A stretch of DNA of 64,000 nt, taken from positions 186,001-250,000 of the forward strand of contig NZ_FQVC01000003.1 in assembly GCF_900128975.1 (NCBI RefSeq). Reading direction: 5' to 3'. Shown piece by piece: positions 15,477-52,980 of the stretch (the stretch's first letter is position 1; every line of letters starts with the position of its first letter). A program made the translations under genes and the position numbers. The notes under the pieces were generated by a model. The model did no database searches. It was not told where the DNA came from and saw nothing but the letters and a program-made list of their open reading frames with translations. The stretch is from Devosia limi DSM 17137. Its GTDB lineage: Bacteria; Pseudomonadota; Alphaproteobacteria; Rhizobiales; Devosiaceae.

Positions 15477-16307
15477 TCAGCCCTCTGGCTCATCGGGCAG
15501 CACAAGCGGCGGCCGATCTGCATCACGCCACCCTGTCGGCTTGCCCTTCTCTCTCGGCAGGAGGTTGAAGCAGCCCACCAGCACGTCCAGTGCGTCGAGC
15601 AGTTCCTTTTCAAGGCGGCGCCGGGCTTGTCCACCCTGCCCCAACTTCAGGTTTTCACACAGACTGCGCACCGATAGGCCGTGAACGACGATCTTGTCGA
15701 CGATGCTTGCCGCCCGCGCGCCCAGCGCCCTGCGGCAGCTATCCAGCTCGGCACGGGTGTCGTCCTGTGAGGCCGAGACCTGATCTTGGCGCGGCCCCGA
15801 CGTGTCGACACGCACCTGGGAGTAGTCAGTGGCCTGCATGGGCCCAATCTGGCTGGTTTCGTAGAGGTGGCAATAATGGGCCGCTGCCATGAACTGGGCT
15901 TCGGTCTTGCCCTTCACACGCGCCAGCCCGCCAACCAGCACTACCTGGTTCTTGGCGGCCATGATGCTGGCTTCGTGCTTGGTGGCCACCTCACCGCTGG
16001 CAACGGCATCGAGCAACCCCTGGGTAATCATCGGGTTGGGCACCAGCTCGAATTTCGGCACGGTCCGGCCTTCGCCGGCGTCGACCACCGCGCGCAGTTC
16101 GTCGACCCGACGCAAAGCTGTTTTTGACTTGGCCCCTTGCCGCGCAAGAATGGCGTGCAAAGCGCGCAGCTGCAGAATGCACTGTTCGTAGGCTTCGGAA
16201 TAAGCGGATGACAACGCCCGGGCTTGCGCCTCGGCTGCAGGAAGCTCTGATGCCGCCTGATCGAACGTCAGTGGCTTGGAGGCTTTGGCTTTGCTGGCCT
16301 TAGACAT
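15477..16307 (-). CDS. Phage regulator candidate (Q position, C-terminal HTH-like region)
   Basis: A 276-aa protein starting MSKASKAKASKPLTFDQAA. The N-terminal 70 residues are helical and basic; the C-terminal part, ASIVDKIVVHGLSVRSLCENL followed by GQGGQARRRLEKELLDALDVL, looks like the helix-turn-helix region of DUF6456-type proteins. It is the last gene of the early operon, directly before the candidate late promoter, so an activator or antiterminator of late genes is likely. The start codon is preceded by GAGAGG at 7 nt, and that sequence is locked in a 9-bp hairpin. Confidence 0.65.
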   Translation of the reverse strand: MSKASKAKASKPLTFDQAASELPAAEAQARALSSAYSEAYEQCILQLRALHAILARQGAKSKTALRRVDELRAVVDAGEGRTVPKFELVPNPMITQGLLDAVASGEVATKHEASIMAAKNQVVLVGGLARVKGKTEAQFMAAAHYCHLYETSQIGPMQATDYSQVRVDTSGPRQDQVSASQDDTRAELDSCRRALGARAASIVDKIVVHGLSVRSLCENLKLGQGGQARRRLEKELLDALDVLVGCFNLLPREKGKPTGWRDADRPPLVLPDEPEG

Positions 16308-16311
16308 AGAA

Positions 16312-16335
16312 CGACCTCTCGGGTGGGAGAGGTCG
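16312..16335 (-). promoter_or_regulatory. Hairpin covering the ribosome-binding site of the 276-aa gene
   Basis: CGACCTCTC (minus strand, 16335-16327) pairs perfectly with GAGAGGTCG (16320-16312) around a 6-nt loop. The second arm contains the GAGAGG Shine-Dalgarno, 7 nt from the ATG at 16307, so translation should be low unless the hairpin opens. Confidence 0.55.
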
Positions 16336-16352
16336 GGCAGGCTGGTCGGACA
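16331..16352. repeat. 22-bp inverted repeat, copy 1
   Basis: This 22-bp sequence (starts GGTCGGGCAGG, ends GGTCGGACA, plus strand) is found exactly, in inverted orientation, at 20,615-20,636. It contains a GGTCGG direct repeat. Both copies lie 24-36 bp upstream of a minus-strand start codon. Confidence 0.7.
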
Positions 16353-16382
16353 GTCCTTTTATGCCCGAACTGCCGTGAGTTT

Positions 16383-16565
16383 TCAAGCGCGCCAGGCCAA
16401 TATCCCTTTGTGCCGGATGACGTCGGCTGGGGGCTCTATCTCATCCCTTGCTCGGCGCTGTTTCTGCTCAACTTTCGGGTTAAAGTAACGGCCTCCCACC
16501 TGGTGGGTCAGTCGAAACGCTACGCCACTCTTCGCCGCATGACGCTGGCTTGACCACTTGCCCAT
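16383..16565 (-). CDS. Small basic phage protein
   Basis: A 60-aa protein, MGKWSSQRHAAKSGVAFRLT..., rich in Lys/Arg and with HQVGGRYFNPK in the middle. The ATG shares its first base with the stop of the ParB-like gene (TGATG), which supports translation. No family was recognised; size and charge suggest nucleic-acid contact (inference). Confidence 0.6.
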   Translation of the reverse strand: MGKWSSQRHAAKSGVAFRLTHQVGGRYFNPKVEQKQRRARDEIEPPADVIRHKGILAWRA

Positions 16566-17416
16566 CAGGATGCCTTTCGCTTCTTGCGGCACTTCCTGAA
16601 CCAGATAGACGCTAGCGCCTTCCAGATGGGAACGCGATGGGTGGCGGCGAATATCTTGGCCTCGTCGTCGACGGTCCACCCCAGACCTGCCACCGCCTCA
16701 GTCAAAGCTTCGGCTTCAATCGCTTCCTTGAATTCGTCCTCGGTCAACAGGTGCTCGACGGCCTTGATCTGGTTGGATGTGATTGGTGCTAACTCTGCCT
16801 TTGCCAGCACGTCGAGGATTTGCCTCGCGCGCATGGCGCCCCTGCGCGAGACCAAACCCGCGATAGCAGTGACTGCAACGGTCTCGCGCGCCTCAAATTC
16901 CCTGCCGGTGTAACGCAGGATCTTGATACCTGCCCGGTCGCAAACCTGCGCCACCGTCACAGCTTCAGGGTCGCCGGCAGCCACCGCCGCATAGTGCAGC
17001 TGCAGCGCAGTGATGCCCAGGCGATCCTTGTTCTGGCCAAGGAACGCCTCTGCCTGGGACCGGGTGTCCGGTGCCTCGACGATCATCACTGGGATCAGCG
17101 CCACATGCGGATTGCTGGCGCAGGCGATTGCGGTGTGCTGGCCGTCCAGCACCTTCAGCACGGTCTTGCCGTCCTCGTCCTCGGCAAAGGCGCAGACCGG
17201 CGGCTTGAACTTCGTCCAGTCGAAATTCTCGATGATGCGGCGCACCTGCTTGATGCCACGCTCGCCAACCGGGCGCTGATAGGCTGGGTCGACCCAAAGG
17301 TCGCGGGGGTCCACCATCTCGCAAATGGGCATGCCGGTTTCGGGCTTTGCCGGAGTGAGGCCAATGAGGCCGATGGGTGCGATCTGGCGCAGAGCTTGTT
17401 CGGGGGCGTTCATCAT
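16565..17416 (-). CDS. ParB/DUF6551-like nuclease-domain protein
   Basis: A 283-aa protein. Residues 30-150 have the ParB/Srx pattern: WVDPAYQRPVGERGIKQV, then FDWTKFKPPVCAF, and VLDGQHTAIAC with the conserved G-Q-H. The C-terminal half is helical. Phage proteins of this type accompany replication genes; DNA binding is likely but activity is not proven. It overlaps the primase stop (ATGA) and is followed by the 60-aa gene. Confidence 0.75.
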   Translation of the reverse strand: MMNAPEQALRQIAPIGLIGLTPAKPETGMPICEMVDPRDLWVDPAYQRPVGERGIKQVRRIIENFDWTKFKPPVCAFAEDEDGKTVLKVLDGQHTAIACASNPHVALIPVMIVEAPDTRSQAEAFLGQNKDRLGITALQLHYAAVAAGDPEAVTVAQVCDRAGIKILRYTGREFEARETVAVTAIAGLVSRRGAMRARQILDVLAKAELAPITSNQIKAVEHLLTEDEFKEAIEAEALTEAVAGLGWTVDDEAKIFAATHRVPIWKALASIWFRKCRKKRKAS

Positions 17417-18369
17417 TGCGTCCTCAGTTTTGACAGAAGCACGTCGTTCCAGTCGGTGCCGGGTTCAGGCGGGATCACCACCTCGGCCATGATCGATTGG
17501 TTGAGCCGCTTGCCCAGCGCATAGGCTGCCGCCTGCCCCACCGAGTTGGTGTCGTTGTCGCCAAAGACCACAACCTCCGTGACGCCCTCGGGCGGCTGCC
17601 AGGCTTCGAGCCGGCCTGCATTGAGCGCAGACCAGCAGGGGATGCCGTGTAGGGCAGTCGCCGCCAGTGCTGTTTCGACGCCCTCGGCAATGCCGAGAAC
17701 CTTGTCGTGCTTCGCCAGCCGAACGGCGCCGCCAGCCGGCAAGCTTCCCATGGTGAGCCGTGGCGCATTGCCGGTCACCTTCTCGCCGCCCTGCGTGAGA
17801 AAGGTTCGCTGCAATCCTGCCAGATCGCCATGCACGTCGACGAACGCCGAGATCAGCGCCGCACAGGGCTGGCCGTTACGGTTCAAGGCCGGGTGGAAGC
17901 GCAGTGCCCGCGATGGTGCATAGGCGCCGACGCGCTTGCGCAGATACTGGTCAGCGATGTCGTCGGTGGTAATCCATTTGGCGGCTTTCCACACAGCCCT
18001 CACCGCAGCGTAGGTCTCTGCCTGCTCATGGCGAGGATCGGCAACGATGGGTTGCTCTACCGGCTCGCTGTCGGTCCCGATCACGGTCTCGACTAGGCGC
18101 GCGGCCTCGGCAAAGTCACAGGACTGCATGTCCATCAGCAGGCGGAAGCCGTTGCCGGCGCTGCCGCTGGCATTGGACGATTCCGTGCCATGCTGCTGAG
18201 CGCAAAACCACGTGCCCTTGCCGTCCTTGTCGTCGAAGCGAAACCGATCCTTTCCACCGCACACTGGGCACGCGCAGTGCTTCCCGGTGATGGATGCCGC
18301 TGGTATGCCCAGCGACGGCAGGATTTCCTTCCAGCGCCCCTGGACGCGATCGCCAATCTTACGCTGCAT
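17413..18369 (-). CDS. Phage DNA primase (zinc ribbon plus Toprim)
   Basis: A 318-aa protein. Residues 33-60 form a zinc ribbon with CPVCGGKDRFRFDDKDG and a later Cys and His (WFCAQQHG), typical of the P4-type primase zinc-binding domain. Residues about 200-310 form a Toprim domain: VLGIAEGVETALAA supplies the Glu, and EVVVFGDNDTNSVG the D-x-D. It makes primers on the template opened by the upstream helicase. It overlaps the helicase gene by 11 bp. Confidence 0.88.
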   Translation of the reverse strand: MQRKIGDRVQGRWKEILPSLGIPAASITGKHCACPVCGGKDRFRFDDKDGKGTWFCAQQHGTESSNASGSAGNGFRLLMDMQSCDFAEAARLVETVIGTDSEPVEQPIVADPRHEQAETYAAVRAVWKAAKWITTDDIADQYLRKRVGAYAPSRALRFHPALNRNGQPCAALISAFVDVHGDLAGLQRTFLTQGGEKVTGNAPRLTMGSLPAGGAVRLAKHDKVLGIAEGVETALAATALHGIPCWSALNAGRLEAWQPPEGVTEVVVFGDNDTNSVGQAAAYALGKRLNQSIMAEVVIPPEPGTDWNDVLLSKLRTQ

Positions 18370-19843
18370 CTGGTGCCCCTCCCGTCTTCTGTTCCTTTCC
18401 GCGGCCCTTCGCGTATCTGATCTGCGAGGCCCTCACGTAATTCCGACAATGCACGTCTGGGGTCGCCGGCACCGCGCGCAGGCTGCGCGGCCACATGCCG
18501 AAGCGTTCTTTGAATTTGTGGCTGGCCCAACCCTCAGAATATCCCCGCTCGTCGCAGTACCAGAGCAGCCCAGACCAGAACCGTTGCTTGGTGGCTCGGT
18601 CGTCCTTTGTCTTGCCGCCTTGCACCTGGAACAGCTCGCCGTCGACGGTGGCGACATCCTCGCGCCGTGCGGGCGCAAAGCCACATTCTGGGCAGACATG
18701 CACACCAGCAGGCTTGAGGTAGGTGCAGGACGTGCATTCCTTGGGGAGCTTCACCGCGCGTACCTTGGGCTCGGCCTTCCTGCCCTTTGCCATGCGGCCC
18801 GCGTCGAGCTTTTCGTGCTTGATGTCGGTCACATAGCCCAGCGTCTGGGTGGTGTCGGAATGGTCGAGGATGATGCAATCCTCTTTCCCGTCTGCGGTGC
18901 GCAGGCCTCGCCCGATGATCTGGGTGTAAAGAATTTCGCTCTTGGTCGGCCGCGCCAGGATGATGCAGCGCACATCCCAGTCGATGCCGGTGGTCAGAAC
19001 CCCGACGTTGACGACCACCTTGACCAATCCAGTGGCAAACGCCCGGCCGATCTTGGTTCTGTCATCGCGCTCGGTATTGGCATCGATGTAGGCCGTGGTG
19101 ACGCCGGCTGCACGGAACTCGTCCTCGAGACTGCGCGCATGCGCCCGGTTCACCGCAAAGCACAGCGTAGGCCGGTTCTCCCCAGACTTGAGCCAGGTCG
19201 TGACGATGTCAGCAGTCAGCTGCGGTTTGTCCATGGCCTCAGCGGCTTGGCCTTCGTCGTAGTCGCCAGCGACCGTTCCGACGCCCGACAGGTCTGGATG
19301 GGATGGGGCGAAGGCCCGGAAGGGTGACAGAAATCCCCGCGCAATCAGGTCGCGGGTGGTCGCCGCAATGATCAGGTCGTCATAGTGCTTGCCCAGTCCC
19401 TTGGTCCAAGGCGTCGCGGACAGCCCGACAAAGGGCAGCTTTGGCCGATCGGCCATCCAGTTGAAGATCACCTTGAACGCTTGGTGCGCCTCGTCGACCA
19501 GCACCATGTCGGTATCGGGCAGCGCCCGGCGCGCGAGCGTCTGGACGCTGGCTATCTGGACCCGGGCCATCCAATCCACCGCGGGGTGGTCGGCTTGGAT
19601 AACGCCGATATCGGTGATCCCCTCTGCTCGAAATTCGTCGAGCGTCTGGTCGATCAGCGAGATCGCCGGCACCGTGAAGCAAACACGATTGCCCTTGTCC
19701 AAGGCCATCTGGATCACGGCGGCCGCAGTCAGAGTTTTGCCGAAGCCGGTGGGCGCCTGCAGCATGGGTCGCTTGTGGCCTGATGCCAGCGATTGCCGGA
19801 GCATGCGGATGGCATCGGACTGGTGGTCACGCAGGGGCCTCAT
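18359..19843 (-). CDS. Phage DEAD/DEAH-box helicase (SF2)
   Basis: A 494-aa protein with motif I APTGFGKT (residues 30-37), motif II DEAH (117-120), motif III LSATPWTKG, and motif VI in QIIGRGLRTADGK. A C-terminal zinc-binding cluster, CTSCTYLKPAGVHVCPECG, follows the RecA lobes. It probably unwinds DNA at the phage origin together with the primase. Its ATG overlaps the stop of the putative initiator gene. Confidence 0.9.
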   Translation of the reverse strand: MRPLRDHQSDAIRMLRQSLASGHKRPMLQAPTGFGKTLTAAAVIQMALDKGNRVCFTVPAISLIDQTLDEFRAEGITDIGVIQADHPAVDWMARVQIASVQTLARRALPDTDMVLVDEAHQAFKVIFNWMADRPKLPFVGLSATPWTKGLGKHYDDLIIAATTRDLIARGFLSPFRAFAPSHPDLSGVGTVAGDYDEGQAAEAMDKPQLTADIVTTWLKSGENRPTLCFAVNRAHARSLEDEFRAAGVTTAYIDANTERDDRTKIGRAFATGLVKVVVNVGVLTTGIDWDVRCIILARPTKSEILYTQIIGRGLRTADGKEDCIILDHSDTTQTLGYVTDIKHEKLDAGRMAKGRKAEPKVRAVKLPKECTSCTYLKPAGVHVCPECGFAPARREDVATVDGELFQVQGGKTKDDRATKQRFWSGLLWYCDERGYSEGWASHKFKERFGMWPRSLRAVPATPDVHCRNYVRASQIRYAKGRGKEQKTGGAPDAA

Positions 19844-20343
19844 TTGCCGCCCGCCTTGGCTCGTGCCCGTGTCTTACCACCCTGCCCTACTGAGAGATCC
19901 TGCCCTGTATGGCTAAGTTCTGAATCCCTCATCCCTCCTCCCTCCTCCATCTGCGGAGCGATTTCCCCATTTGGGGGAAATGGTTCCGGAATAGACGGCG
20001 GTAAGCGGACGTAATTTCGGAAATCATCCGGCATAGGGTGGATGTCATTGGGGGATTTTGGACGCTGGAACTTACGGAAATTCCGAATTGCGCCGTACTT
20101 ACGTCCGTCGACTTCGTAATTGGCGATGGCGTCAATCGACACCAATTCCGCAAGCAGGGTATCGATGTCGAGGGTGTCCGCCGGAAACAGGCGCATCTTG
20201 AGAGTGGTGATTTTCCACTCAAAGGCGCCCTTGTCGTCAGCCTCGACCCATAGCCCCAGCAATAGCAAACGAGCATCTCGGCTCACCTGAACCAAGTCCT
20301 CGTCGGTGAAAAAGCCCGGGTGGATAGATCGAATGCGGCTCAT
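19840..20343 (-). CDS. Putative phage replication initiation protein
   Basis: A 167-aa protein starting MSRIRSIHPGFFTDEDLVQV. The first 110 residues (LLLLGLWVEADDKGAFEWK, YGAIRNFRKFQRPKSPND) match the winged-helix N-terminus seen in phage replication and helicase-loader proteins. The C-terminus is disordered and basic. It is shorter than usual initiators, which often carry a second domain. Its place just before the helicase supports a loading role. Confidence 0.65.
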   Translation of the reverse strand: MSRIRSIHPGFFTDEDLVQVSRDARLLLLGLWVEADDKGAFEWKITTLKMRLFPADTLDIDTLLAELVSIDAIANYEVDGRKYGAIRNFRKFQRPKSPNDIHPMPDDFRNYVRLPPSIPEPFPPNGEIAPQMEEGGGMRDSELSHTGQDLSVGQGGKTRARAKAGGK

Positions 20344-20579
20344 ACCCGGTCGATCCCCATAATGTCGGCAAACCCGTTCCAGGCCGCGACCAGCGCCGCC
20401 GCGTTGGCAAGGGTCGGATCGTCAGCGTTGTGCCTGAAGGCCACGCGATAGGCGTTGAACGCGGCGCGCTGCGGCTCCTGCTGCAGATCGACGACCATGT
20501 GCGTGCCGATCAGGTGAGTGGCGTCGATGCCCTCAACGGCGGACATGGCTTCGCCGTCCACGATTTCGTCGTGTTTCAT
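20340..20579 (-). CDS. Hypothetical phage early protein
   Basis: A 79-aa acidic protein, MKHDEIVDGEAMSAVEGID..., with a helical Ala-rich C-terminal half. It is coupled to the following gene by an ATGA overlap and is the second gene of the leftward early operon. No family was recognised. Confidence 0.65.
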   Translation of the reverse strand: MKHDEIVDGEAMSAVEGIDATHLIGTHMVVDLQQEPQRAAFNAYRVAFRHNADDPTLANAAALVAAWNGFADIMGIDRV

Positions 20580-20698
20580 GGTGGTTGATTTCCTTGAAGG
20601 GGTGGGCAGCGGGTTGTCCGACCAGCCTGCCCGACCGAGATTATGGGATCAGCGCAAAACTGCGCTGGTCGGGCCATCACGCGCATGTGGGTGCGAGA
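20580..20698. other. Leader between cro-like gene and early operon, with hairpin
   Basis: No gene is seen. It holds the second copy of the 22-bp inverted repeat (20,615-20,636) and a perfect hairpin, CAGCGCA / TGCGCTG with a 4-nt loop (20,650-20,667), without a T-run. Its place after the cro-like gene is where lambda has nutR; an antitermination role is only a guess. Confidence 0.4.
20615..20636. repeat. 22-bp inverted repeat, copy 2
   Basis: This is the exact reverse complement of 16,331-16,352. It lies 36 bp upstream of the 79-aa gene. The repeated occurrence in two leaders of the early operon suggests a protein-binding site. Confidence 0.7.
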
Positions 20699-20899
20699 TC
20701 ACGCAGCAACCTCTTCGCGCGGGTAAATATCTGGGCGGAGATCGTGTCGACTTACGCCGCTGGCCTTCTCAACTGCCAGCACACGCAGAGCCGGCACTCG
20801 ACGCCACTGACTTACGGCTTGCGGGGTCACACCGATTTTCTCGGCAAACTTTTGGGCCGTGCCCACGGCCTTGATGGCAGCTTCGAGTGCGTTTTCCAT
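20699..20899 (-). CDS. Cro-like regulator (YdaS-type helix-turn-helix)
   Basis: A 66-aa protein, MENALEAAIKAVGTAQKFAE, then KIGVTPQAVSQWRR, a clear helix-turn-helix of the YdaS/Cro type, and a C-terminal RVLAVEKASGVSRHDLRPDI. The ATG at 20899 is preferred over an upstream GTG that falls inside an operator. The -10 element of its promoter is only about 6 nt ahead of this ATG, so its mRNA may be leaderless. It is divergent from the repressor and shares its operators. Confidence 0.82.
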   Translation of the reverse strand: MENALEAAIKAVGTAQKFAEKIGVTPQAVSQWRRVPALRVLAVEKASGVSRHDLRPDIYPREEVAA

Positions 20900-20903
20900 A
20901 GGC

Positions 20904-20934
20904 GTATTAAGCACGGCTTAAGGTTAAAATCAAG
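20904..20934 (-). promoter_or_regulatory. Candidate leftward early promoter
   Basis: On the minus strand TTGATT lies about 17-18 bp upstream of TTAATAC, whose centre overlaps the operator at 20,907-20,921. Transcription would start at or next to the ATG at 20899. Repressor on that operator would block it. Confidence 0.45.
20907..20921. promoter_or_regulatory. Operator 1 (left cluster)
   Basis: TTAAGC-ACG-GCTTAA, a perfect 6-3-6 palindrome and the best match to the consensus shared by five sites around the repressor gene. Confidence 0.75.
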
Positions 20935-20944
20935 CACCACTTCA
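20930..20944. promoter_or_regulatory. Operator 2 (left cluster)
   Basis: TCAAGC-ACC-ACTTCA, a degenerate copy of the palindrome; its centre is 23 bp from operator 1 and 24 bp from operator 3, about two helical turns. Confidence 0.6.
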
Positions 20945-20972
20945 TTGTTCACCTAAAGCAATGCTTTATGAT
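20943..20972 (+). promoter_or_regulatory. Candidate repressor promoter (PRM-like)
   Basis: TTGTTC (20,945-20,950), 16 bp, then TATGAT (20,967-20,972). Operator 3 sits inside the spacer and touches the -10 element, so cro-like protein or excess repressor could shut it off. The repressor ATG is 24 bp downstream. Confidence 0.5.
20954..20968. promoter_or_regulatory. Operator 3 (left cluster)
   Basis: TAAAGC-AAT-GCTTTA, a perfect palindrome with one symmetrical change from the consensus, nearest to the repressor gene. Confidence 0.75.
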
Positions 20973-20995
20973 GTTGTTCAAACAGGAGAATTGCA

Positions 20996-21649
20996 ATGTC
21001 TGCACTTGGAGACCGCATCCGCGATAGCAGAAAGGCTGCGGGGATGACGCAGGCGGACCTGGCACGGGCGCTTGGCATTAGCGTGCAAGCGATTTCGCAA
21101 TGGGAAAGCGGCAGGACAGTACCAACAGCGGACCGACTTATTTTTATCGGCGACCTACTCGGATTAGACCTGAGAACAGCGTACTTCGGCGGGGAGTTGG
21201 GCCCCTATCGCGGAGACACGAGGGAGGGTCGGTTTGTCGTTCCGATGCTCAGTAAAGTGGCTGCAGGGAACTGGTCGGAAACAGTCGCCCAGCAGCATGT
21301 CGCTGATGAAATGCGGGCGTTCGAAATCCACTGGAAGCCTTCTGGCCCCACGTTTGCACTAGAGATCGATGGCGAAAGCATGATGCCAGAATTTAAGCCT
21401 GGCGACGTCATTATCGTAGACACCGGCCTCGAGCCTATACCAGGGGACTATGTTGTGGCCGCGCTCGAAGGAGAGAGTGAGGCAACCTTCAAAAAGTATC
21501 GACCAAGAGGGAATGATGCTGACGGTAAGCCAGTGATCGAATTGGCGCCCCTTAATCCCGATTATCCCAGCCTGACGATATCATCGAAATCACCGGGGCG
21601 AATTGTCGGAACCATGAAAGAACATCGTTCATTCCGGCGGACAAGGTGA
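20996..21649 (+). CDS. Prophage repressor, CI/LexA type with S24 peptidase
   Basis: A 217-aa protein. Residues 5-60 are a Cro/CI helix-turn-helix (MTQADLARALGISVQAISQW). Residues about 80-215 are a LexA-type latent protease with an Ala90-Gly91 cleavage site (VAAGNW), nucleophile Ser128 in DGESMMPEF and general base Lys at 166 in TFKKY. RecA-stimulated self-cleavage would induce the prophage after DNA damage. A strong AGGAGA lies 7 nt before the ATG. The gene is flanked by operators on both sides. Intact catalytic residues suggest a working switch. Confidence 0.93.
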   Translation: MSALGDRIRDSRKAAGMTQADLARALGISVQAISQWESGRTVPTADRLIFIGDLLGLDLRTAYFGGELGPYRGDTREGRFVVPMLSKVAAGNWSETVAQQHVADEMRAFEIHWKPSGPTFALEIDGESMMPEFKPGDVIIVDTGLEPIPGDYVVAALEGESEATFKKYRPRGNDADGKPVIELAPLNPDYPSLTISSKSPGRIVGTMKEHRSFRRTR

Positions 21650-21668
21650 AGCGACACTTGATTTTAAA

Positions 21669-21683
21669 TTAAGCATCACTTGA
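21669..21683. promoter_or_regulatory. Operator 4 (right cluster)
   Basis: TTAAGC-ATC-ACTTGA; left half matches the consensus exactly and the right half has two changes. It overlaps the -35 element of the rightward promoter. Confidence 0.65.
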
Positions 21684-21708
21684 CATTAAGGTTAAGCGGG
21701 GCTTTACT
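21680..21708 (+). promoter_or_regulatory. Rightward early promoter
   Basis: TTGACA (21,680-21,685), 17 bp, TTTACT (21,703-21,708). Both elements lie in operators 4 and 5. It would drive the 113-aa gene through the integrase and be silenced by the repressor. Confidence 0.65.
21692..21706. promoter_or_regulatory. Operator 5 (right cluster)
   Basis: TTAAGC-GGG-GCTTTA, one change from a perfect palindrome; centre 23 bp from operator 4. Confidence 0.72.
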
Positions 21709-21737
21709 ACCTTCAGCGAACACCGTTGGAGGCCGAT

Positions 21738-22079
21738 ATGCCGTCACCCCTTCCCAAGCTCTTCGAGGCGGCCCGCAAGCGCGGGTTCGATCCTCTCCTG
21801 CTTGCAATTGCTGAATACCGCGTGGGTGCTGCAGCGTTCAACGCGACACCACATTACCTAACCGACATCGGCGACTTAGAGGCTTTGGCGACCAGCGAAG
21901 GCTACGGGACTGCGCTCGATGCCTTGCGTACATGGAACACGCCTCCGTCCAGCATGCAGAGCGCCATCGCCGGGCTGGAACTCGGCATTGAAGAACTTCG
22001 CAATGGCGACCACGAAGTCGCTGACTGCATGATGGAGAGCGTTCTGGCGTTCTTGAGAGCGCAGCAGCCTGCCGTCTGA
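21738..22079 (+). CDS. Hypothetical prophage early protein
   Basis: A 113-aa protein, MPSPLPKLFEAARKRGFDPL..., helical and mildly acidic, with no membrane segment. The ATG at 21738 is preceded by GGAGG at 5 nt; an upstream TTG lies before that site and was rejected. It is the first gene under the repressed rightward promoter. No family was recognised. Confidence 0.7.
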   Translation: MPSPLPKLFEAARKRGFDPLLLAIAEYRVGAAAFNATPHYLTDIGDLEALATSEGYGTALDALRTWNTPPSSMQSAIAGLELGIEELRNGDHEVADCMMESVLAFLRAQQPAV

Positions 22080-22091
22080 TCCGAATAAATC

Positions 22092-22124
22092 GGCTCGGGC
22101 AAGCGCTGTAACGCTCCCCGAGCC
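22092..22124 (+). terminator. Intercistronic hairpin (possible attenuator)
   Basis: GGCTCGGG pairs with CCCGAGCC, and the inner AGCG/CGCT extends the stem. No clear T-run follows, so it may be a processing or partial termination site between the first two genes of the rightward operon. Confidence 0.4.
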
Positions 22125-22153
22125 TCCCACAATTCTACCGCTGGAGGTCAATC

Positions 22154-22522
22154 ATGGATGCCGCATCCAATACCCCAAATTTCCCGTCTGATAAATACTC
22201 AGCGATGACCGTCTGGGAGCTCTATTCCGTCATGTCGACCATGGTGTCCATTTTGAACACCTTCGACCTCACGTGCCGCGCTGCGGCAGACGGCGAGTCT
22301 GCGGTCTTCGGTTGGGCCGAGGAACATGAGAAACGCCTAGACAGGGAATTGCAGGCGATGTCGGGCAATCTCGCCGCGCGGCTCGGCCTATCGAGGGACG
22401 ACGAGGACGTTCGCGACATGGCCTTCGCTCGCGTCGACGGCCTGGTGCCATCCTTCATTTGGGCCGATGGCCGCGCTAACCGCATGCGCACCGCCACCGA
22501 GCTCCGGAAGGCAGGTGCGTGA
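22154..22522 (+). CDS. Hypothetical prophage early protein
   Basis: A 122-aa protein, MDAASNTPNFPSDKYSAMTV..., mostly helical. GGAGG lies about 7 nt before the ATG. The stop overlaps the next ATG (TGATG). No family recognised; it begins a chain of coupled small genes leading to the integrase. Confidence 0.7.
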   Translation: MDAASNTPNFPSDKYSAMTVWELYSVMSTMVSILNTFDLTCRAAADGESAVFGWAEEHEKRLDRELQAMSGNLAARLGLSRDDEDVRDMAFARVDGLVPSFIWADGRANRMRTATELRKAGA

Positions 22523-22758
22523 TGGCCAGTTACGACCTGAACGACCTGCATACCGATCTCACCAACATGGGCGAGCTGATCGACACCGTGGCCGAAACCA
22601 TCTTGGGATGCGACTTTGGCCCGCCAGGTGCCAGGGTCCCACATATGGATCGCCTGAACGCCCTTATCTGTATCGCTCGCGATCAGATGGAGAAGCTCAA
22701 CGGCCTTGTCGACGACAACTTCGTTGAGATTGGGTCGACTGTCGTGGGAAGGAGATGA
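22522..22758 (+). CDS. Small hypothetical prophage protein
   Basis: A 78-aa acidic, helical protein, MASYDLNDLHTDLTNMGELI..., without membrane segments. It starts on the base shared with the previous stop and overlaps the next gene by ATGA. No family recognised. Confidence 0.65.
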   Translation: MASYDLNDLHTDLTNMGELIDTVAETILGCDFGPPGARVPHMDRLNALICIARDQMEKLNGLVDDNFVEIGSTVVGRR

Positions 22759-22961
22759 GCGGTCGCGAACAGAACCGGATGAAGGCAGCTGATGACCTTA
22801 ACCGCGGCCTTGCCATTGTCACCACGGCTTGGCTGGCCCTGGACGCCGCCGAGACGGCAGACGATCAAGCAGCCATCCATGAGACGCTTTACGAGGCCAT
22901 ACAGAAGCTCAAATCGGCCGAGGTGCTTCTGGGCGTCTACACGGCAGGGGAAGGCAAATGA
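22755..22961 (+). CDS. Small hypothetical prophage protein
   Basis: A 68-aa all-helical protein, MSGREQNRMKAADDLNRGLA..., coupled to both neighbours by ATGA overlaps. GGAAGGAG lies just before its ATG. No family recognised. Confidence 0.65.
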   Translation: MSGREQNRMKAADDLNRGLAIVTTAWLALDAAETADDQAAIHETLYEAIQKLKSAEVLLGVYTAGEGK

Positions 22962-23236
22962 ACCACTCCCAGCTGCGGCAGCGCGCCGAGGCGATGATCG
23001 AAGAACTGATCGAGATGCTCGACCAGATCGACGGGGATCCGGATTTTGAGGCAAACGGCGACCTTGAGCCGTCCTTGGGCCTCGGGATGCTCTTTGACGA
23101 AACCGGCCGCTGGCACTGGTCGGGGGAAGACAGGGAGGGCCACGACGCCGGCGATGAGCCCGACATGGACTTTTGCGCCCAGACGATGAACCCGTCTCCC
23201 ATCCGGACCAAGCGCATCACCAGGAGGGCTGCGTAA
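22958..23236 (+). CDS. Small hypothetical prophage protein
   Basis: A 92-aa very acidic protein (many Asp/Glu) with an N-terminal helix, MNHSQLRQRAEAMIEELIEM, and a Trp-containing middle. Acidic early phage proteins sometimes mimic DNA, but nothing here shows this. Its stop shares a base with the next ATG. Confidence 0.65.
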   Translation: MNHSQLRQRAEAMIEELIEMLDQIDGDPDFEANGDLEPSLGLGMLFDETGRWHWSGEDREGHDAGDEPDMDFCAQTMNPSPIRTKRITRRAA

Positions 23237-23667
23237 TGCACGAGAAACCAATCGGCGCATTTGATGCCATGGGTCTGATCGTCCGCGAAGGTGTCGCCGT
23301 TCGAGACCTGAAAACCCGCGAAGAATGCGTCCAGGCTGTCGTTGATATCGATATGCAGATCGAAGGCATGCTGTCTCAGATCAGCCGTGTTGAAGCCGAT
23401 CCAGAGCACAGCTTAAACAGGCCTGGCTGGCGCTCGAAGGTGCAAGGCGCAATTCGTTGGAAGAAACGAGCGAAGGCAGCAGTTAATAAGCTCATCGTCC
23501 AGTTTGATAAGGGCAAGCCGGCCGATCCAAGCAAGGACAGCTTCCGCTACGTTCTCTTGGACACACTGCGCCAGGAGCTTGGCGACGCCGAGTTCGATCG
23601 CATCCGAGATATCGCGCGGGATCGATATCGGGTGGCCTTCCCATCCTGTGATGGGAATGCGCCGTGA
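23236..23667 (+). CDS. Hypothetical prophage protein
   Basis: A 143-aa protein starting MHEKPIGAFDAMGLIVREGV. Residues 25-100 are helical and basic (GWRSKVQGAIRWKKRAKAAV), suggesting nucleic-acid or membrane-surface contact. The start is fixed by a TAATG overlap with the preceding stop. No family recognised. Confidence 0.65.
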   Translation: MHEKPIGAFDAMGLIVREGVAVRDLKTREECVQAVVDIDMQIEGMLSQISRVEADPEHSLNRPGWRSKVQGAIRWKKRAKAAVNKLIVQFDKGKPADPSKDSFRYVLLDTLRQELGDAEFDRIRDIARDRYRVAFPSCDGNAP

Positions 23668-23837
23668 GGCTCTTATGGGTTACCGCATGCGCTCTGTCCG
23701 CATGGACCTGCGCATCGTGGGCAACAGGCCTCACCCCGGAGCACAACCTTGCCGTGGATTACATCTGGCTCTGGTGGCTGCCGGCGTTCACCTGGACCCT
23801 GACGGCGATCAGGACAGCTATGGGGGAACGGGGATGA
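23664..23837 (+). CDS. Small Trp-rich membrane protein, GTG start
   Basis: A 57-aa frame starting on GTG that overlaps the previous stop (GTGA), and whose own stop overlaps the next ATG (ATGA). It reads RLLWVTACALSAWTCASWAT, then DYIWLWWLPAFTWTLTAI; the two hydrophobic stretches (residues 2-20, 31-50) could each span a membrane. It has seven Trp. Tight coupling on both sides is the main argument that it is real. Confidence 0.6.
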   Translation: MRLLWVTACALSAWTCASWATGLTPEHNLAVDYIWLWWLPAFTWTLTAIRTAMGERG

Positions 23838-24097
23838 CAAAATCCGCCATCCGCCGCCTAATGTCGCGCTCCGAGGCTGCTGCCTATTGCGCTTTGTCGG
23901 TCCCAACCTTTACGGCCGTTTGCTCAGTGCGCCCCGTTCCTCTGGGGCCGGGCAAACGCCTAGAGCGATTTGACCAAGCGGATTTGGACAAATGGATTGA
24001 CGGGCTCAAAGGGATAGAGGCCAAGTCGGATTTCGATCAAGCACTGGAAGCGCTGAATGGCGACGAGGAAGAAGAAACCGGGAATACCCGGCATTAA
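23834..24097 (+). CDS. Excisionase-like DNA-binding protein
   Basis: An 87-aa protein. MTKSAIRRLMSRSEAAAYCA opens a MerR/AlpA-type winged helix (SRSEAAAYCALSVPTF, later RFDQADLDKWIDGL), the common form of excisionases. The acidic tail overlaps the integrase start by 41 bp. Together with the integrase it would control excision. Confidence 0.75.
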   Translation: MTKSAIRRLMSRSEAAAYCALSVPTFTAVCSVRPVPLGPGKRLERFDQADLDKWIDGLKGIEAKSDFDQALEALNGDEEEETGNTRH

Positions 24098-25148
24098 GCG
24101 ATACTTCGAGCCGAAGTCCGGGAACTGGTATTCTTACCACCGCAAGACCGGTAGGCGGATCGAAGCTGAATACGGCACCGCCGATTTTGTTGCGGAAGTC
24201 GCACGGATCAACGAGGAAGTAGCAAAGGCCGCAACAGGCAACGCGAAGGCTGGCACGTTGGGTGCGTTAATCACCATGTACCGCGCCACCGCCATGCCGC
24301 TGCTGGCCACGCGCACCAGAACCGACTACCAGAAGGTATTCGACTACCTCAAGCCTATGCGTGATCAGCCCCTCGCAGCTTTCACCAGTGGCGCCATAGT
24401 CAAGATCAGAGACAAGGCTTACGCGAAGCACAAACGTCGTTTTGCCAATTATGTGGTCGCCGTCTTCTCCATCATTTTTGAGTTCGCGCGCGAGCGGGAG
24501 ATGGTGTCGACCAACCCCGTGATCAGAACCGTGAAAAAGATTCGTCGGCCGAAGGGAATGGCGGACGCTAACCGGGCATGGTCACAGGCCGAGCGCGAAG
24601 CAGTGATGTCTGCGGCCCCTATTCATCTCAAGGTGCCCATTGCCTTGGCGATGTACGTTGGTCTGCGCGAGGGCGACGTGTTGCGGATGACATGGGCGCG
24701 ATACAATGGCCACGACATCTCCACCACGACCAGCAAGGCGGGAACCTTCGTCTGGTGGCGCTGCCCAGTTGCCCTGCGAGAAATCCTTGATGAAGCCCCA
24801 CACTTCGATGAGGTGCCAGAGATCGCTGCTACCAGCCGAGGCACAGCCTGGACCGAAAGCGGCTTTCGCGCTTCCTGGCGGAAGTTCAGAATGGCTTTGG
24901 AGCAAAAGGGCCTGGTCCAGCCAGGCCTGACCATTCATGGCTTGCGCCATACAGTCGCAACAACCCTGCGCGAGCAAGGCTTCGATACCCGAACAATTGC
25001 AGACGCCCTCGGCCAGAAGACGGAAATCATGGCCGCGCACTACAGCAAAAACGCAGACCTCAAGAACAAAATGGCGACGGTAACTGACGCCATGGACCGT
25101 CTGCACCAGAACGAACAAGAACAGAAGCTGTCTAGACGCATTGTCTAG
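24057..25148 (+). CDS. Prophage integrase, tyrosine recombinase
   Basis: A 363-aa protein. Residues 1-60 resemble an arm-binding domain, 65-165 a SAM-like core-binding domain (LGALITMYRATAMPLLATR), and 175-345 the catalytic domain with Arg204 (GLREGD), Lys227 (TSKAG), His294 and Arg297 (HGLRHT) and nucleophile Tyr329 (AHYSK). The usual second His of the 'LGH' box is Gln320 here (ALGQKT). The gene ends 60 bp from the tRNA 3' end, the standard position for tRNA-site phages. Confidence 0.93.
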   Translation: MATRKKKPGIPGIKRYFEPKSGNWYSYHRKTGRRIEAEYGTADFVAEVARINEEVAKAATGNAKAGTLGALITMYRATAMPLLATRTRTDYQKVFDYLKPMRDQPLAAFTSGAIVKIRDKAYAKHKRRFANYVVAVFSIIFEFAREREMVSTNPVIRTVKKIRRPKGMADANRAWSQAEREAVMSAAPIHLKVPIALAMYVGLREGDVLRMTWARYNGHDISTTTSKAGTFVWWRCPVALREILDEAPHFDEVPEIAATSRGTAWTESGFRASWRKFRMALEQKGLVQPGLTIHGLRHTVATTLREQGFDTRTIADALGQKTEIMAAHYSKNADLKNKMATVTDAMDRLHQNEQEQKLSRRIV

Positions 25149-25176: not shown

Positions 25177-25204
25177 CAAAAAACCCCCGGTTTCCCAGGG
25201 GTTT
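25177..25204 (-). terminator. Terminator downstream of tRNA-Met
   Basis: On the minus strand AAACCCC pairs with GGGGTTT around a 10-nt loop, followed by a T-rich run. It would end the tRNA transcript. It lies on the prophage side of the tRNA end, so it may be phage-supplied or within the attachment region. Confidence 0.65.
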
Positions 25205-25208
25205 GAAA

Positions 25209-25245
25209 TGGTAGCGAAGCCCAGATTTGAACTGGGGACACACGG
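25209..25245. other. Probable prophage attachment site (attR)
   Basis: The 3' part of the tRNA gene, including the encoded CCA, abuts the integrase end. Phages that insert here normally carry an identical copy of the tRNA 3' end. The matching attL is outside the window, so the core length cannot be measured. Confidence 0.5.
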
Positions 25246-25285
25246 ATTATGATTCCGCTGCTCTAACCAACTGAGCTACTCCGCC
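25209..25285 (-). tRNA. tRNA-Met (CAT), elongator type
   Basis: A complete 77-nt cloverleaf with encoded CCA. Acceptor stem GGCGGAG/CTTCGCT (two G-U pairs), D-arm GCTC-AGTTGGTTA-GAGC, anticodon stem GCGGA/TCCGT with loop ATCATAA (anticodon CAT), and T-arm CCCAG-TTCAAAT-CTGGG. An elongator Met tRNA is most likely; a lysidine-modified Ile tRNA has the same anticodon and is the alternative. Confidence 0.92.
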
Positions 25286-52611: not shown

Positions 52612-52980
52612 CTAGGCCGCTGCATTTTCCCACTCGAACTTGGCCTCGAGGATGCTGCGGTCGAATGGCTTCATCATGTAGTCGCTGGCCCCGGCTTTCA
52701 GGGCCATGGCGATGGCGCCGATGTCGTTCTCGACGGTGCAATAGACCACTTTGGGCTTCTCGCCACCGACATAACCGCGCAGCAGCTTGAGGAATTCCAT
52801 GCCGCTCATGATTGGCATGTTCCAGTCGAGCAGGATCGCGTCCGGCATTTCCTGCCGGCACTTGTCAAAGGCTTCCTGGCCGTCCTCGGCCTCTTCGACG
52901 ATGTAGTCCATGTCTTCCAGAATGCGTCGCGCGACTTTGCGCACGACGCTGGAATCATCGACGATCAAGCAGGACTTCAT
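52612..52980 (-). CDS. Single-domain response regulator beside chpT
   Basis: A 122-aa CheY-like receiver with no output domain: Asp8-Asp9 (IVDDSSVVRKVARR), phospho-acceptor Asp52 (LLDWNMPIMSG), Thr82 (YCTVEND) and Lys104 (MMKPFDR). All phosphotransfer residues are intact. It follows chpT by 78 bp on the same strand, so it could take part in the CtrA phosphorelay or in motor control; it is not obviously CpdR or DivK. The ATG at 52980 was chosen over a GTG three codons upstream. Confidence 0.88.
   Translation of the reverse strand: MKSCLIVDDSSVVRKVARRILEDMDYIVEEAEDGQEAFDKCRQEMPDAILLDWNMPIMSGMEFLKLLRGYVGGEKPKVVYCTVENDIGAIAMALKAGASDYMMKPFDRSILEAKFEWENAAA

Follow-up and report, generated by a model that had tools for sequence, protein, structure and literature searches.

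The region around the repressor gene in the 64,000-nt stretch of Devosia limi DSM 17137 DNA analyzed here (the window) is very probably the immunity region of a temperate phage, laid out as in lambda and P22, with three operators on each side of the repressor gene. The switch is a new example of this known design rather than a new mechanism. The sites, the genes, their layout, and the recurrence of that layout in relatives were all observed (Table 1). The six sites are degenerate copies of TNAAGC-N3-GCTTNA, and the left triplet sits between the repressor gene and a divergent Cro-like gene.

Table 1. Features of the switch region and the surrounding prophage, followed by operator positions in phages sharing the operator word
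Feature	Position	Strand	Sequence or product	Remarks
OR1 operator	20907-20921	no strand	TTAAGCACGGCTTAA	in the -35/-10 spacer of predicted Pcro
OR2 operator	20930-20944	no strand	TCAAGCACCACTTCA	overlaps -35 of predicted Pcro, abuts -35 of predicted PcI
OR3 operator	20954-20968	no strand	TAAAGCAATGCTTTA	between -35 and -10 of predicted PcI
OL3 operator	21647-21661	no strand	TGAAGCGACACTTGA	overlaps repressor stop codon
OL2 operator	21669-21683	no strand	TTAAGCATCACTTGA	overlaps -35 of predicted PL
OL1 operator	21692-21706	no strand	TTAAGCGGGGCTTTA	between -35 and -10 of predicted PL
Predicted Pcro	20906-20933	-	TTGATT-N16-CTTAAT	weighted score 6.9, weak
Predicted PcI	20945-20972	+	TTGTTC (20945-20950)-N16-TATGAT (20967-20972)	weighted score 7.9
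Predicted PL	21680-21708	+	TTGACA (21680-21685)-N17-TTTACT (21703-21708)	weighted score 12.1
Leftward early genes	15477-20579	-	replication initiator, helicase, primase, ParB-like, two of unknown function	PHROGs
Cro-like gene	20699-20899	-	66 aa, YdaS/P22-Cro type HTH	divergent from repressor
Repressor gene	20996-21649	+	217 aa, HTH_3 + Peptidase_S24 (Pfam)	P22 C2-like
First gene of rightward operon	21738-22079	+	113 aa, unknown function	no Pfam/PHROG match at E 0.01
Excisionase-like gene	23837-24097	+	PHROG excisionase/regulator	weak (0.0018)
Tyrosine integrase gene	24057-25148	+	Pfam Phage_integrase 9.3e-11; PHROG integrase 4.2e-33
att core	25206-25253	no strand	48 bp	overlaps tRNA-Met (25209-25285, minus strand)
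L122/L123 sites	OR 18, 41, 65; OL 451, 474 or 449, 472			relative to cro start
L125 sites	OR 46, 93; OL 783, 805, 828			relative to cro start
L126 sites	OR 19, 42, 67; OL 1923, 1958			relative to cro start
L130 sites	OR 34, 57, 81			relative to cro start; no OL seen
L152-L155 sites	OR 16, 39, 83; OL 1290, 1313			relative to cro start
L189 sites	40, 98			relative to cro start; no OL seen
L092 (1447-2248) sites	OR 2193, 2218, 2241; OL 1477, 1454			1477 at end of repressor gene

Predicted operators flanking the repressor gene

A sequence-only reading had earlier proposed five TTAAGC-N3-GCTTAA palindromes at this locus, three before the repressor gene and two after it, and all five were present where it placed them (20907-21706). 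The step sizes it gave also held, being 23 and 24 bp between centers on the left and 23 bp between its two sites on the right. However, the palindrome was exact at 20907-20921 only, and the other four sites carried 1 to 3 mismatches at the 12 fixed positions (0 mismatches at 20907, 1 at 21692, 2 at 20954, 2 at 21669, and 3 at 20930). Likewise, three sites were found before the gene as claimed, but there are also three rather than two after it, OL3 at 21647-21661 having been missed. The six centers are at 20914, 20937, and 20961 (OR1 to OR3) and at 21654, 21676, and 21699 (OL3, OL2, and OL1), giving steps of 22 and 23 bp in the right triplet. The distances between the clusters are 785 bp for OR1-OL1, 739 bp for OR2-OL2, and 693 bp for OR3-OL3; the ~740 bp of the earlier reading is the OR2-OL2 distance, whereas the inner centers are 693 bp apart. 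The likeness between the two clusters extends beyond the operators, since they are partial inverted copies of each other (21-nt arms 81% complementary, 26-nt arms 77%).

With up to 2 mismatches allowed, the palindrome occurred four times in the 64-kb window, every time at the repressor locus (0.65 expected), and none of 100 shuffled windows reached four matches. In a leave-one-out matrix scan, the first five sites ranked 3rd to 6th among ~64,000 window positions. OL3, which was outside the training set, scored 16.3 bits and ranked 7th under the matrix of the other five. Scores at the OL3 level appeared 0 times in 1,000,000 simulated bases of the window's composition and ~13 times per million at 46% G+C; in the latter simulation the chance of an OL3-grade match within 2 bp of the expected place was ~6.5e-5. 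Position as well as score therefore speaks for OL3 as a putative sixth operator. Another operator-like site, at 52965-52979 in host DNA outside the prophage, scored 17.0 to 17.5 bits (17.0 with the five-site matrix), which is above OL3, and is probably a chance match; among 20 shuffled windows, one had a site equal to the worst of the five. A site at 24094-24108, in the overlap of xis and int, reached 14.4 bits with the six-site matrix and 13.5 with the five-site matrix and was rejected, since 0.38 sites of 13.5 bits would arise by chance in every 64 kb. A scan of the 20 kb to the left of the window for more operators found none above 8.8 bits.

Genes and predicted promoters of the prophage switch

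The repressor belongs to the PHROG "transcriptional repressor" family (4.9e-40), and its solved relatives are lambda CI and P22 C2. Its Ser128, Lys167, and Ala90-Gly91 align with the LexA-type self-cleavage residues of P22 C2. In an alignment of five phage repressors including P22 C2, Ser128, Lys167, and Gly91 were invariant, whereas the Ala-Gly pair was common to the window, P22 C2, L125, and L088 repressors but not to that of L120. By these residues, the protein would combine an HTH domain with a self-cleaving S24 domain. The Cro-like protein matched Pfam YdaS_toxin (1.4e-16) and P22_Cro (2.8e-09), a PHROG transcriptional repressor family (8.7e-19), and the PDB Cro structure 3bd1 (4.4e-06); YdaS itself is described elsewhere as equivalent to Cro (PMC9986795). 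The recognition helices of the two proteins are alike (QAISQW in cI and QAVSQW in Cro).

Promoters were scored with a weight set, and the operator letters themselves raise these scores. PL is strong by this prediction, and Pcro and PcI are weaker divergent candidates. A consensus promoter scan of 20600-22200 reported none, because its rules need an A at position 2 of the -10 and four matches per hexamer. The proposal that each cluster overlaps a promoter holds for predicted promoters, by weighted score and by placement in relatives but not in the consensus scan. The best support for the predicted promoters is the like placement of PL across relatives, a comparison made without a shuffled control: the -10 begins 4 to 6.5 bp past the OL1 center in 17 of 20 loci, the exceptions being L127, L146, and L005. 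The predicted PcI is placed likewise in L122, L123, and L125. With a start 7 bp past the -10, the OR2 center would lie at about -42 from the PcI start; lambda OR2 is likewise at -42 relative to PRM. Transcription from the predicted Pcro would begin on the A of the ATG of cro, and by eye no ribosome-binding site was apparent (20897-20911), so the cro mRNA may be leaderless, for which PY54 offers a precedent (PMC4488713). OR1 is similarly close to cro in L122, L126, L127, and L146.

The 48-bp att core is repeated exactly at window positions -12884 to -12837, and from these repeats the prophage is ~38.1 kb long and lies at tRNA-Met. Taken with an adjoining 27-bp match one base away, the core extends to ~76 bp (25178-25253), repeated at -12912 to -12837. 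The PL operon leads through several small unknown genes to xis (a weak match) and int. Replication genes follow in the cro operon, and still further left are those for terminase, capsid, portal, and tail. The 79-aa gene next leftward after cro was checked for likeness to CII, and the 113-aa first PL gene for likeness to N; neither had a Pfam or PHROG match at E 0.01. Four other genomes among the 136 of the family, all in the same genus, carry weak homologues of the first PL gene, and its search in viral contigs returned an identical copy only. Window positions 15996-25148 occur letter for letter in IMG/VR (L036), which is probably the same phage and was therefore excluded as an independent relative. 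A DNA-level search with the region against 50,697 phage records and 72,556 plasmid records gave no match.

The layout in known systems and distant relatives

The resemblance to lambda OL/OR suggested by the sequence-only reading was borne out in gene order, operator number (with the sixth site), spacing, and predicted promoter placement. Both have two sets of three operators around the repressor gene and the same promoter assigned to each cluster, this region being the mirror image of lambda with the left triplet as OR and the right triplet as OL. Lambda int and xis belong to the PL operon, as in the window. The operator and the Cro family differ from those of lambda, and the clusters are ~0.7 kb apart with cI alone between them, compared to ~2.3 kb in lambda, where the rex genes lie between OL and OR.

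P22 immC shares the cro-OR-c2-OL order. Its OR centers are 23 and 25 bp apart, compared to 23 and 24 bp in the window, and its OR1-OL1 distance is 819 bp, compared to 785 bp. P22 C2 is 34% identical to the window repressor in the alignment, and both systems use a TNAAG-type half-site. However, several differences were apparent. P22 operators are AAG-N4-CTT and those of the window AAG-N5-CTT; P22 has two OL sites 35 bp apart, whereas the window has three at 22 to 23 bp; the -10 of predicted Pcro lies on the opposite side of OR1 in the two; and the first rightward gene of the window, which has no family match, shows no detectable likeness to P22 gene 24. The temperate Rhizobium phage 16-3, for which oL1, oL2, oR1, and oR2 are named (PMC12429752), has two and two operators by that description, compared to three and three in the window.

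Because a repressor homologue at E of ≤1e-10 was present in only 2 of 136 family genomes, the prophage's own included, conservation was tested on distant relatives. The repressor search gave 35 loci in genome_contigs, 46 in viral_contigs, and 362 phage records, and a search with the Cro-like protein gave 78 viral loci. From these, a motif-free set was hand-picked for near full-length matches and enough flank. It comprised 23 of the 81 repressor loci, 6 phage records including P22, 43 of the 78 Cro loci, and the window, or 73 loci with 67 distinct upstream regions (the identical copy L119 was left out). A triplet of palindromic sites next to cI, sought at 20- to 27-bp steps only, was found in 44 of the 67 upstream regions, of which 32 scored at least 8; the other 35 of the 67 had none at score 8. 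In 31 of these 32 loci none of 20 shuffles matched the triplet score, and in L089 one did. A matrix built from each locus's own triplet was then used to find pairs of sites 20 to 37 bp apart with a pair score of at least 28. Such a pair was found beyond cI in 20 of the 32 triplet loci (15 of 23 by sequence clusters) compared to 0 of 32 on the cro side, where the best score was 12.8; this control stretch was shorter than the far side in the six phage-record loci L086-L091. The cutoffs of 8 and 28 were chosen after the scores had been seen, and no far-side score fell between 20.3 and 30.4. In the 12 loci without a far-side pair (L001, L040, L041, L043, L047, L051, L007, L063, L088, L120, L130, and L149), a single far-side site of at least 14 bits was found in four (L001, L041, L043, and L120). 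A lack of conserved spacing in relatives, which the sequence-only reading had named as a refutation, was not found: in other phages the steps stay at 21 to 25 bp and operators flank the repressor gene, as seen in searches allowing only 20 to 27 bp for triplets and 20 to 37 bp for pairs.

The same layout was also found with other operator words, of the ACAGTT-N2-AACTGT type in L089, L090, and several Gilliamella prophages and of the GAAAG type in L127 and L146. The operators of L188 are of the ACAACA type, which we take to recall those of Rhizobium phage 16-3. Among 15 cluster representatives, the OL pair was spaced 22 to 24 bp in eight and 34 to 36 bp in seven, with none between, within the 20 to 37 bp allowed by the pair search. 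The two spacings differ by about one helical turn, and the P22 pair, at 35 bp, is of the long kind. The PL -35 lies mostly inside OL2 with the short spacing and mostly between both sites with the long one.

Some relatives share the operator word itself. The six-site matrix found at least two sites near cro in 10 of the 43 other Cro-found loci (L122, L123, L125, L126, L130, L152-L155, and L189); the remaining 33 were without the word. OL pairs were present in 8 of the 10, the exceptions being L130 and L189. In L125, whose repressor is the closest of those aligned (58% identical), the middle OR site was below the matrix cutoff and was found by the triplet search, and one OL site is at the end of cI. 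L122 and L123 have the same operators on both sides of a 106-aa HTH-like repressor, which runs from +83 relative to the cro start on the cI-oriented strand and leaves no room for an S24 domain; their OL-OR distance is ~0.4 kb. Among 112 loci recovered by other means, with copies of the window set aside, three from genomes of the same taxonomic order share the word: L092, L103, and L106. These three were the loci inspected in detail among those from that order. A Cro-like gene with QAVSQW adjoins in L092. The OR triplets of L103 and L106 have steps of 24/22 and 22/24 bp, with no OL site of at least 9 bits in the stretch scanned. An Acinetobacter repressor locus present in six copies (L007, L008, and L056-L059) gave two matrix matches 98 bp apart inside the repressor gene, which were not counted as operators.

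Proposed switch and alternative explanations

We infer binding, promoter activity, cooperativity, looping, and induction from the sequence, as follows. Repressor dimers would bind OR1 to OR3, between cro and cI, and OL1 to OL3, just after cI. Occupied OR1 and OR2 would block the leftward lytic promoter, while OR2, ~42 bp upstream of where cI transcription is inferred to begin, could aid polymerase at PcI as lambda OR2 does. OR3 inside PcI would allow autorepression at high repressor levels. OL1 and OL2 would cover PL, which reads to the excisionase and integrase genes. The 22- to 24-bp steps would place neighboring dimers about two helical turns apart, as in cooperative pairs. RecA-stimulated cleavage of the S24 repressor would then lead to prophage induction. 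Cro probably binds the same sites, as its recognition helix resembles that of the repressor.

Contact between OL and OR over ~0.7 kb is plausible because the 693 to 785 bp of the window are within the looping range of coliphage HK022 and the telomere phage phiKO2, whose OL and OR also flank the repressor gene. Looping was measured there (~700 and ~630 bp, respectively; PMC8053113), and in the window we somewhat favor it by analogy. Lambda loops over ~2.3 kb between its two sets of three operators (PMC5880393). The phiKO2 system is described as having five operators, a Cro that binds OR3 only, and a repressor, CB, in which the conserved residues of self-cleaving repressors were not detected (PMC4997575).

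A competing explanation, to which we give a smaller though substantial share of belief, is that the clusters are independent, each repressing its own promoter with local cooperativity and no OL-OR loop. It differs from the preferred explanation by the loop alone, and the likelihoods given to the two are not exclusive. PL and Pcro, as predicted, each have operators placed for direct occlusion, and the OR1-OL1 distances of the 15 cluster representatives span 456 to 1939 bp with no signal of helical phasing (Rayleigh p of ~0.43 at 10.5 bp, n = 15). Also, L122 and L123 retain both clusters with their 106-aa repressor, which means that two-sided operators need not imply looping through an S24 domain. 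However, the lambda, HK022, and phiKO2 repressors are reported to loop between just such clusters, and OL3, being upstream of the PL -35, is hard to account for by occlusion of PL alone. At the other extreme, it is highly improbable that the palindromes are chance or structural features such as a terminator or an RNA hairpin. OL3 does overlap the end of the repressor gene, a place where a terminator would not be surprising, and the unrelated place at 52965 scores as high. But a terminator scan of the + strand over 20600-22200 found none, by which the terminator reading was ruled out; such scores are rare in both simulations; and other phages carry the sites with the same spacing.

It is also unlikely that the main binder is Cro and not cI, with the operator letters tracking Cro. 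The Cro search did recover phages with the same operator word, L126 and L152 share the word though the first 50 residues of their repressors look different by eye, and L122 and L125 retain the TPQAVSQW helix. However, the 58%-identical repressor of L125 goes with a shared operator too, the repressor-found L092, L103, and L106 share the word, and the recognition helices of cI and Cro resemble each other. Probably both proteins bind the operators.

The preferred reading, then, is a compact switch of the lambda type, whose operator word can be named and recurs in a group of relatives. We suggest only speculatively that these form a phage set with a common word and switch design, having OR1/OL1 in the promoter spacer, a leaderless cro, OL pairs at 22 to 24 or 34 to 36 bp, and repressors ranging from an S24 self-cleaver to a 106-aa HTH-only protein. 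The comparison makes testable the reason for the two OL spacings and whether an S24-less repressor needs two-sided operators. If such a set is real, Cro would have as large a part as cI in fixing the operator code, and looping would be optional.
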